The position numbers and the translations under genes are program-made. From contig NZ_PZKE01000001.1 of the NCBI RefSeq assembly GCF_003034965.1, positions 124,001 to 188,000 on the forward strand: 64,000 nt of DNA. Reading direction: 5' to 3'. The notes beneath the pieces are model-generated. The model ran no database searches. It had not been told where the DNA came from and worked only from the letters and a program-made list of their open reading frames with translations. Positions 10,487-11,787 of this stretch are shown piece by piece. Source of the stretch: Fuscovulum blasticum DSM 2131. Its GTDB lineage: Bacteria; Pseudomonadota; Alphaproteobacteria; Rhodobacterales; Rhodobacteraceae. Positions within the stretch are counted from its first letter, which is position 1. Every line of letters starts with the position of its first letter.

Positions 10487-11116
10487 ATGGAAATCATGAA
10501 CCGCCTTCTGCCCGGCATCCTTGCCATGGCCGTCATCGTGATGGCCTCGAACATTCTTGTTCAACACCCGATGGGCGCCTACCTCACTTGGGGCGCCCTG
10601 AGCTATCCCTTCGCCTTCCTCGTTACCGATCTGACCAACCGCATCGCCGGCCCGGCCGCCGCGCGACGGGTGGTTCTGGCTGGCTTCGTTACCGGCATCC
10701 TCTGCTCGTTGATTGGCACGCAAATCGTGGGCGAGTTCGGTCCCCTGGTCACGCTGCGCATCGCGCTTGGCTCGGGCTTGGCCTTCCTGTCGGCGCAGAT
10801 GCTGGACGTGGCGATCTTCGATCGGTTGCGCCGTCACCGTTGGTGGGTTGCGCCCTTTGTCTCAACCCTGGTGTCTTCGACGCTGGACACGCTGATCTTC
10901 TTCACCGTCGCCTTCGCCGGCTTTCTGGTGTTTCTGGAGCCCGGGAATGATGTGTCCTGGGCCGCAGGGCCAACCCCTCTTCTGGGCATCGGGCCGGTCT
11001 TGCCGTTCTGGGTTTCGCTGGCCGCAGCCGACTGGTGCGTGAAGATTGGTCTTGATGCCGTCGCACTTGTTCCTTTCCGCATCATTGCCGGAAAACTCAT
11101 GGCACGGGTTGCGTGA
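10487..11116 (+). CDS. yhhQ: queuosine precursor transporter (YhhQ/VUT family)
   Basis: The 209-residue inner-membrane protein has six predicted segments. PMGAYLTWGALSYPFAFLVTDL carries the family's conserved TNR-region motif (VTDLTNR), and the membrane-embedded acidic and polar residues are typical. YhhQ-type proteins import queuosine precursors (preQ0/preQ1) used in tRNA anticodon modification. Two starts compete. The ATG at 10487 (MEIMNRLL) is the longer; the ATG at 10496 (MNRLLPG) has GGAATGGA just upstream and may be the real one. No other queuosine gene is adjacent. Confidence 0.92.
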   Translation: MEIMNRLLPGILAMAVIVMASNILVQHPMGAYLTWGALSYPFAFLVTDLTNRIAGPAAARRVVLAGFVTGILCSLIGTQIVGEFGPLVTLRIALGSGLAFLSAQMLDVAIFDRLRRHRWWVAPFVSTLVSSTLDTLIFFTVAFAGFLVFLEPGNDVSWAAGPTPLLGIGPVLPFWVSLAAADWCVKIGLDAVALVPFRIIAGKLMARVA

Positions 11117-11122
11117 ATTGTT

Positions 11123-11128
11123 TTGACA
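11123..11128 (+). promoter_or_regulatory. -35-like TTGACA box upstream of the 11.2 kb small RNA/microORF
   Basis: A perfect TTGACA lies seven bases after the yhhQ stop, in an AT-richer patch (ttgttttgacaaacacaaaa). A matching -10 hexamer is not obvious at 16-18 bases spacing. It is the best candidate promoter for the short transcript described next. Confidence 0.4.
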
Positions 11129-11169
11129 AACACAAAATCTGTGCCACGTTTCGCCTATCGGCAACTTTT

Positions 11170-11185
11170 GAAAGGAGGTGATCCA
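11170..11185 (+). promoter_or_regulatory. extended Shine-Dalgarno: 16-base complement of the 16S rRNA 3' end
   Basis: GAAAGGAGGTGATCCA is the exact reverse complement of the alphaproteobacterial 16S 3' end, UGGAUCACCUCCUUUC, as I know it. It ends directly against a GTG codon, leaving seven bases between the GGAGG core and the start. Ordinary ribosome sites in this window match only four to six bases. Confidence 0.75.
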
Positions 11186-11242
11186 GTGTCTAGAGGGATA
11201 TTGGAGAGAGGTGTCGGGACAGTCAGGAGGAGTGTTTTCTAG
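11186..11242 (+). CDS. 18-residue microORF with extended Shine-Dalgarno
   Basis: GTG to TAG encodes MSRGILERGVGTVRRSVF, a short basic peptide. The codons AGA, ATA, AGG, AGG and AGT are rare in this GC-rich genome and cluster here, which could slow ribosomes. A second SD-like AGGAGGAG lies inside the frame, 10-18 bases before the stop. The next gene, arfB, rescues stalled ribosomes, so a translation-sensing role is tempting but unproven. The frame may instead be a by-product of a GGA-rich RNA. I know of no family for this peptide. Confidence 0.45.
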   Translation: MSRGILERGVGTVRRSVF

Positions 11243-11312
11243 GGGCAGCCCCTTGGTCAACAGACCACTGATTGGGCCGCTTTCCTAACTGGCCCATCTC
11301 CTTGGAACTCGG

Positions 11313-11346
11313 AAGGGGTCGCCTCTGCTGGCGGCCCTTTCTCTTT
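11313..11346 (+). terminator. intrinsic terminator of the small transcript
   Basis: The stem GGGTCGCC / GGCGGCCC (11316-11323 and 11330-11337, one G-U pair, loop TCTGCT) is extended by A-U pairs and followed by TTTCTCTTT. It lies 19 bases before the arfB ATG, so read-through may feed arfB. Confidence 0.7.
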
Positions 11347-11364
11347 GGCGCTAGGGTTTTCGCC

Positions 11365-11787
11365 ATGCTGCATGTCACCGAAACACTGGCCATCGCCGAC
11401 TGGGAACTGAGCGAAAGCTTCATGCGGTCGTCGGGGCCGGGCGGGCAGAACGTGAACAAGGTTTCCACCGCCGTGGAGCTGCGGTTCGAGGCCGAACGGT
11501 CGCCGCATCTGGCGCCGCCGGTCAAGGCGCGGCTGAAGCGGCTGGCCGGGCGGAAATGGACAGCGGAAGGCGCCATCGTCATCCAGGTGGAAGATACCCG
11601 CAGCCAGGCCCGTAACCGTGAGATTGCCCGCGAACGGCTGGTCGAGATGATCCGCGCCGCGCTGGTGGCGCCGAAGCGGCGCATCGCAACCAAGCCGACG
11701 CTGGGCAGCCAGCGCCGCCGGCTGGTGGCCAAGACCGTGCGGGGCGAAGTGAAGGCGCTGCGCGGCAAGGTCGGGGACGAGGAATGA
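11365..11787 (+). CDS. arfB: alternative ribosome-rescue factor ArfB (peptidyl-tRNA hydrolase, YaeJ type)
   Basis: The 140-residue protein carries the class I release-factor signature SSGPGGQNVNK, with GGQ at residues 26-28, which hydrolyses peptidyl-tRNA. It lacks the codon-recognition domains of RF1/RF2. The Lys/Arg-rich tail (SQRRRLVAKTVRGEVKALRGK) is the part that enters the empty mRNA channel of stalled ribosomes. The frame stays open to 11272 upstream, but the conserved N terminus begins at the ATG at 11365. That ATG has no strong ribosome site, which contrasts with the very strong one of the microORF upstream. Its stop overlaps the next start by four bases (ATGA). Confidence 0.95.
   Translation: MLHVTETLAIADWELSESFMRSSGPGGQNVNKVSTAVELRFEAERSPHLAPPVKARLKRLAGRKWTAEGAIVIQVEDTRSQARNREIARERLVEMIRAALVAPKRRIATKPTLGSQRRRLVAKTVRGEVKALRGKVGDEE

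Follow-up and report, generated by a model that had tools for sequence, protein, structure and literature searches.

Layout and neighbourhood of the locus

Between a transporter gene of the Vut_1 family and an arfB-like gene, on the forward strand of the window (the whole 64-kb stretch of DNA that was analysed), lies a compact element with a promoter-like sequence, an extended Shine-Dalgarno (SD) block, an 18-codon open reading frame, hairpins and a terminator (Table 1). The original prediction took it for a stand-alone RNA gene, and comparison with relatives agrees: the element specifies a structured RNA, about 185 nt long and ending in a covarying terminator, and is found in 190 of 196 Rhodobacterales genomes.

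Table 1. Genes and RNA features at the locus, with positions in the window.
Feature	Position	Strand	Basis
Upstream gene, Vut_1 family transporter (PF02592)	10487-11116	+	Pfam
-35-like TTGACA of the RNA's own putative promoter	11123-11128	+	Sequence and relatives
CAAC, probable region of the transcript 5' end	11162-11165	+	Start of the RF01867 match; exact start site putative
Extended SD, 17 nt, complementary to the alphaproteobacterial 16S 3' tail	11170-11186	+	Window and genome search; 16S tail of relatives
Start-codon hairpin, 11182-11191 with 11196-11205, 10 bp	11182-11205	+	Minimum free energy (MFE) fold; consensus
18-codon ORF, GTG to TAG, VSRGILERGVGTVRRSVF	11186-11242	+	Conserved start, length and stop position; little or no peptide conservation
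Long-range helix, 5' arm GTCGG; partner CTGGC at 11289-11293	11213-11217	+	Consensus helix 3
Covarying hairpin, 11220-11226 with 11268-11274, enclosing the stop-codon hairpin, 11239-11245 with 11250-11256	11220-11274	+	
Internal anti-SD CATCTCCTT, pairing with the SD at 11172-11180	11295-11303	+	MFE fold; consensus helix 1
Intrinsic terminator, stem 11311-11323 with 11330-11342, then CTCTTT	11311-11348	+	MFE fold; consensus
Downstream gene, arfB-like, RF-1 domain (PF00472)	11365-11787	+	Pfam; the name arfB fits at domain level

The upstream sequence carries recurrent elements. Of 117 non-redundant Rhodobacteraceae loci, 72 have TTGAC at 60 to 28 nt 5' of the SD block, compared to 3.3 expected from shuffles, and in 68 of these 72 it is placed 48-51 nt before the block; a sigma-70 consensus scan called no promoter at the locus. 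Of the 117 loci, 104 have CAAC or AAAC in the last 16 nt ahead of the SD block. Between TTGACA and the RNA start, at 11135-11146, the window carries a AAATCTGTGCCA-like sequence common to many Rhodobacteraceae-type loci, where TCTGTG (51/117) and TGTGSCA (57/117) are shared upstream motifs. This stretch is possibly an extended promoter or a factor site.

A Vut_1 gene stands upstream of the RNA in 50 of 51 Rhodobacteraceae-type loci. On the downstream side, 41 of the 50 testable loci of this type have arfB next on the same strand (L159 was left out of the 52 rows of the arfB neighbourhood count, and the 51st locus, L156, is too short to tell), with its start 180-325 nt after the start of the SD block in 37 of the 41 and farther away in 4. 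The remaining nine testable loci keep the RNA and have no arfB in the downstream sequence available for them. Among 142 loci of other types, none has arfB downstream; one Hyphomonadaceae locus has it divergent. The association with arfB that had been predicted is thus a local one, holding for Rhodobacteraceae-type loci and failing elsewhere, and on these counts we rejected an arfB leader as the general role of the RNA. The next ORF, moreover, is convergent and Pfam-matched in Brevundimonas (L152), Mesorhizobium (L090) and Pseudolabrys (L172), with ExoD, Tad and HI0933-like matches, so that a co-directional downstream gene is present in the window and is not a class-wide feature. Because arfB is only a local neighbour and the next ORFs of these three loci are convergent, we see no downstream target common to the loci. 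The Vut_1-RNA-arfB neighbourhood (10487-11787) is conserved in most Rhodobacteraceae-type loci; elsewhere the RNA occurs without both genes.

A fixed SD core, start and stop around a variable peptide

The extended SD, GAAAGGAGGTGATCCAG, occurs once in the window, and its last base, G11186, is also the G of the adjoining GTG. Positions 11170-11185 read GAAAGGAGGTGATCCA, the 16-base complement of the 16S 3' tail that had been predicted, and G11186 extends the complement to 17 nt. A search of the window allowing three mismatches returned the SD block as the sole match, with any match at all arising in 12 of 100 shuffles, and the organism's own draft genome contains AAGGAGGTGATC once. The 16S 3' end GCGGCTGGATCACCTCCTTTC was not found in that draft genome; it is present exactly in 2 of the 10 family genomes searched (own included), and the S. 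meliloti 16S oligonucleotide described in PMC6943124 has the same tail. All 17 SD bases can pair with 16S, since the tail of the relatives and of S. meliloti reads GCGGCTGGATCACCTCCTTTC.

The exact 19-mer GAAAGGAGGTGATCCAGTG is present as a single copy in each of 79 of the 196 Rhodobacterales genomes, and its reversed control gave zero matches. We then used a covariance model that spans codon 2 to the terminator, was built from 22 sequences bearing the 19-mer and is blind to the SD and the start codon. It matched in 190 of the 196 genomes and 86 of 88 genera, with 8 of the 190 matches weak (E between 1e-6 and 3e-3) and none in genomes G038, G110, G141, G145, G150 and G184. Across Rhodobacterales the SD core, ORF, hairpins and terminator are conserved, which bears out this part of the original prediction.

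Sixty matches without the exact 19-mer, drawn from the listed, better-scoring matches of the SD-free model, were inspected individually. GGAGGTG is kept in 60/60, AA(A/G)GGAGGTG in 59/60 and AAAGGAGGTG in 57/60, with AAAGGAGGTGATCC kept in only 24/60. Past AAAGGAGGTG the relatives differ, reading GGTCCA, GCTCTA or GCCCA, a variation which shows that 16S pairing need not be maximal. In 7 of the 60, GGAGGTG stands one or two bases closer to the start, and the ORF length nonetheless holds. Conservation of the SD was thus borne out for the core and not for the full 16-base complement, which together with the GTG is exact in the 79 genomes named above. As far as these sequences go, the SD core is fixed, and over-long 16S pairing is common yet not required; the predicted SD:16S duplex is worth about -25 kcal/mol in each of six groups. 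These counts of SD, start and length rest on the 60 inspected matches because a larger, 292-element set had been filtered for AA(A/G)GGAGGTG, a spacing of 4-6, a second residue S, H, I or K and a frame of 12-40 codons, criteria that exclude 3 of the 60.

In the window, GTG (11186-11188) is followed by 17 sense codons and TAG (11240-11242). A legal start codon is present in all 60 inspected matches (GTG in 52, ATG in 4, TTG in 4), and the ORF has 18 codons in 58 of them and 17 and 22 in the remaining two. The stop codon itself varies: TGA ends 26 of the 60, TAG 25 and TAA 9, and among 127 distinct 18-codon ORFs, which come from a set selected for length, TAG ends 67, TGA 38 and TAA 22, and TGG never occupies the stop position in spite of the frequency of TGA and TAG. 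On a tree of 117 elements, which is rough, was built without the start and stop codons and covers a group chosen by peptide pattern and length, stop identity changed at least 44 times while 114 of the 117 keep a stop at codon 19; start-codon turnover was small, with 3 changes.

The peptide itself shows little or no conservation. In Rhodobacterales ORFs pN/pS is 0.50 over codons 2-12 and 1.01 over codons 13-18, and in Sphingomonadales ORFs it is 2.2, from 12 pairs only. The Rhodobacterales consensus is VSRxxLExGVGT, most Sphingomonadales have MSHGS, and Bradyrhizobium, Mesorhizobium and Methylobacterium have VSxxKRCHLAGIAR, MSSDF and VSHC, respectively; judged by eye, peptides of different orders appear unrelated. 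The ratio of 0.50 at codons 2-12 could possibly reflect a conserved peptide N-terminus, and the same codons also lie in helices. Our conclusion from comparing these sequences is that selection acts on initiation and termination and weakly, if at all, on the peptide; because peptide selection is weak or absent, translation itself appears to be selected. The rarity of the AGA, AGG and ATA codons in the 18-codon frame, another point of the original prediction, is confirmed by 39 long window ORFs picked by GC3, where they occur 1.1, 1.6 and 0.65 times per 1000 codons; AGA, AGG, ATA, TCT and AGT each stay below 3 per 1000 in these ORFs.

The layout extends well beyond Rhodobacterales. A collection of named genomes yielded at least 119 stretches, 117 of which have an ORF of 14-36 codons (left out were L159, with a 59-codon frame, and L097, at a contig end); these 117 belong to Hyphomicrobiales (42), Sphingomonadales (35), Rhodobacterales (15), Acetobacterales (5), Rhodospirillales (5), Caulobacterales (4) and Hyphomonadales (1), with no order given for 10. 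The same arrangement, with lineage-specific peptides of 14-36 codons, thus recurs in six further orders. Among 398 genomes of the phylum (class members included), AAAGGAGG had zero matches outside the class; because this pattern was fitted to the alphaproteobacterial 16S end, relatives may yet exist there. The Bradyrhizobium form (L121, L127, L137, L141, L145, L164, L184, L187, L191) has only 14 codons, and its nine peptides are nearly identical overall, all nine sharing KRCHLAGIAR. Genome G207 has two matches to the SD-start pattern, at C1:805113 and C1:2922049, the first of which is the MSHC-type element L050; Sphingomonas abaci (L148) also carries the MSHC type. The two matches in G207 may be paralogues with divided labour.

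Predicted fold and closure of the SD

The RNA from 11162 to 11346 is predicted to fold with -82.8 kcal/mol (z -3.2), a value equally good in 2 of 200 shuffles. RNAalifold on 24 Rhodobacterales members gave a consensus in which 94.7% of cells are paired and 19 of 46 pairs show double changes; every measure exceeded those of 500/500 shuffles and slid versions of the structure reached at most 57.4% pairing and all had less covariation, although the consensus was derived from the same 24-member alignment on which it is scored, which favours it. Of the 19 pairs with double changes, 17 fall in the two hairpins of the stop-codon region and the terminator: the outer covarying hairpin and the stop-codon hairpin (helices 4 and 5) have them in 5/6 and 4/7 pairs, and the terminal hairpin, with 98% of cells paired, in 8/11. 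A consensus terminator scan of the locus called none because the T tract is broken. The start-codon hairpin is paired in 96% of cells with double changes in 1 of 8 pairs in the 24 sequences, and in 92% with double changes in 3 of 9 pairs in 117 sequences. Helix 3 (GTCGG/CTGGC) is 96.7% paired with one-sided changes only and is absent from the window's own MFE fold.

The suggestion that CTCCTT could close the SD fits this fold well for Rhodobacteraceae. Helix 1, which joins the SD to the internal anti-SD, is paired in 95.8% of cells among the 24 relatives, with zero double changes because the SD side is fixed. Of the 117 Rhodobacteraceae-type sequences, 40 were tested for SD accessibility, which falls below that of shuffles in 37; the same holds for 7 of 9 Bradyrhizobium sequences. 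SD accessibility is lower in just 9/38 sequences of the group labelled xSHC, 8/27 of MSS, 13/33 of Sphingomonadales and 13/29 of the mixed group. The duplex between the SD and internal sequence falls at or below the 5th percentile in 57/117 Rhodobacteraceae and 7/9 Bradyrhizobium elements, and in 10/38 xSHC, 7/25 MSS, 6/28 mixed and 1/31 Sphingomonadales elements. A class-wide closure of the SD by an internal mimic of 16S was accordingly rejected: it holds in Rhodobacteraceae and Bradyrhizobium, is weak in xSHC, MSS and the mixed group and is absent from Sphingomonadales. In xSHC the consensus fold does pair the SD with CCTGGATCGTCGCC, with double changes in 4/14 pairs, whereas the accessibility test (lower in the 9/38) points the opposite way. 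In Bradyrhizobium the ORF contains a CACCTC, which the consensus fold pairs with the SD in 100% of cells (9 sequences). That the anti-SD stretch matches the 16S tail at 12/17 positions was discarded as evidence by itself, there being 26 such 17-mers in the window.

The predicted energy of the SD:16S duplex is -24.8 kcal/mol versus -16.4 kcal/mol for the SD:internal duplex. Because 16S pairing is stronger by about 8 kcal/mol, the closed fold may not hold ribosomes off, and the closed state would act mainly kinetically or under ribosome scarcity.

Relation to CC2171 and the proposed role of translation

The original prediction recognised no described family, and here it has to be corrected: Infernal gives one E-value-supported match to the Rfam family RF01867 (CC2171), spanning 11162-11338 (E 4.6e-5 to 4e-4), though its score of 31.5 bits is below the family's cut-off of 75. 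CC2171, a Caulobacter sRNA, is typed by Rfam as an sRNA gene, and is said to stem from the work of Landt in 2008. The 22-nt 5' block GAAAGGAGGUGAUCCAGUGUCU is identical and the middle is unalignable; the family's 5' feature, GAAAGGAGGUGAUCC followed by NTG and UCU, is present at the window locus, and the two RNAs share the terminal hairpin and the length class. In contrast to CC2171, the window form has an SD-closing anti-SD 3' of the ORF and lacks a clear CATTGTC/GACAATG helix, and because the curated score of 75 bits is unmet, we describe the window RNA as CC2171-like and stop short of assigning it to the family.

That helix, which joins codons 3-5 to the strand before the terminator, has a predicted energy of -12.2 kcal/mol with its own partner versus -8.5 kcal/mol across lineages. 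The own partner of the early-codon strand beats those of other lineages in every group's mean, but in only 19 of 117 Rhodobacteraceae elements does the own partner of codons 3-5 beat all 30 partners, and the consensus fold favours SD:anti-SD pairing. At E ≤ 0.01 the RF01867 model matched 69 of 289 class genomes, 9 of which reach the gathering cut-off. Fifty matches were inspected among those listed, and 49 have the SD block followed by a legal start (TTG in 3); the match at L085 is without an SD block and looks false. Of 14 control genomes, Deinobacterium chartae matched at E ≤ 0.01 and 10 matched at E ≤ 10.

MH_s33 of Mesorhizobium huakuii is reported as a 215-nt RNA-seq product annotated RF01867 (PMC5596092), and PMC11701678 mentions one covarying pair added to RF01867. 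Two Caulobacter RNAs earlier taken as non-coding are described as actually translated (Schrader 2014, PMC4117421), and annotated S. meliloti sRNAs are likewise reported to bear translated ORFs (PMC10117765). Neither a functional study of a CC2171-type RNA nor expression or Ribo-seq data on the window's clade were found in the open PMC literature, with the sequence string AGGAGGUGAUCC included in the search. Among known systems, rnTrpL/peTrpL of Sinorhizobium meliloti, a dual-function attenuator sRNA with a 14-aa ORF, resembles the window RNA as an alphaproteobacterial sRNA with a mini-ORF. It is, however, described as leaderless, upstream of trpE and encoding a functional peptide (PMC10117765), whereas the window RNA has an extended SD, no common downstream gene and differing peptides. 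Pos19 (RSs0019) of Rhodobacter sphaeroides, a short coding sRNA of the same bacterial order, is set apart by its description as a 219-nt RNA with a 150-nt sORF (PMC5036791). The CCUCC-loop sRNAs (RSs0680a type, SmelA075/SmelA099) share an anti-SD stretch; they are described with several hairpin loops bearing anti-SD motifs such as CCUCCUCCC (PMC3927594), whereas the window RNA has a single CATCTCC, predicted to pair with its own SD, and reading its sequence and fold did not reveal two or more hairpin loops with CCUCCUCCC.

We consider it fairly probable that the element is a small RNA gene in its own right, representing the CC2171-type RNA in Rhodobacterales, and that its RNA is obligatorily translated. 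It is best read as a small regulatory RNA that is translated and whose folding is governed by ribosome loading; ribosome loading and termination appear to be selected rather than the peptide, and a conserved start and stop around a changeable peptide hints that being translated is the RNA's job. Transcription would begin near 11160 from the RNA's own promoter, the extended SD would pair with the 16S tail and load a 30S subunit, and the ribosome would translate 18 codons and end at the fixed stop within a hairpin. Loading or translation would open the closed fold, in which the SD is paired with CATCTCCTT and the GUG is part of a hairpin; with no ribosome bound, the RNA would reclose. The open form would differ in activity or stability, for example through a freed CUCC segment that pairs with the SDs of other mRNAs, and which fold prevails would depend on how much free 30S there is or how fast initiation proceeds. 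The conserved anatomy supports the putative steps of transcription start, SD loading and 18-codon translation and the predicted closed fold; that the fold switches, and that the open form acts via CAUCUCC on mRNAs or through its own stability, is what we infer. A more specific version would make the RNA a sensor of ribosome availability, combining a 16S complement with an internal competitor (in at least two lineages) such that free 30S sets the open or closed state, the open RNA regulates mRNAs via the anti-SD and the peptide is a by-product; we put this forward tentatively, as a possibility on the doubtful side.

Several other roles would accommodate part of the evidence. The RNA might be a small mRNA whose 18-residue peptide is the functional molecule, with structure regulating only its synthesis, as conservation of start, stop and length, the VSRxxLExGVGT consensus with its reduced pN/pS at codons 2-12 and the nearly identical Bradyrhizobium peptides would suggest. 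This seems unlikely, as pN/pS is close to 1 over codons 13-18 and exceeds 2 in Sphingomonadales, peptides look unrelated by eye across orders, and the conserved codons overlap paired RNA segments. We regard as improbable a ribosome trap, in which the over-long SD would bind 16S and hold 30S subunits, lowering or timing global translation: the strength of the SD:16S duplex in all six groups and the invariant GGAGGTG speak for it, but sequence beyond AAAGGAGGTG varies, AAAGGAGGTGATCC is so often lost, and it is hard to see what a fixed stop would do in a pure trap.

As a cis-acting leader or attenuator, the RNA would control the gene that follows it, here arfB, which would explain the same-strand arfB at 41 of the 50 testable Rhodobacteraceae-type loci and its close spacing at 37. 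This role is nevertheless quite improbable in light of the nine testable loci that keep the RNA without downstream arfB and the opposite-strand, Pfam-matched ORFs in L152, L090 and L172, and no antiterminator alternative came to light on unsystematic inspection. Least probable of all, to the point of being remote, is that the RNA is a non-coding sRNA or sponge which pairs with CCUCC-type sRNAs through its GGAGG-rich 5' part and carries the ORF incidentally. Rfam's filing of CC2171 as an sRNA gene and the reported occurrence of CCUCC-type sRNAs in alphaproteobacteria (PMC3927594) would agree with it, but the legal start in 60/60 matches and a stop position that stays constant while stop codons change argue against it.

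A small translated RNA whose folding ribosome loading controls remains our preferred reading. The RNA is found in the great majority of Rhodobacterales genomes and in at least seven alphaproteobacterial orders, and it has no stated function in the literature searched. Conservation of start and stop but not of the peptide is, in our judgement, an unusual pattern, and it predicts that translation is the function. If this is right, it would correct the annotation of the RF01867 family, whose own cut-off only 9 of the 69 matched class genomes reach, and would provide a tractable model for the sensing of ribosome supply in bacteria.
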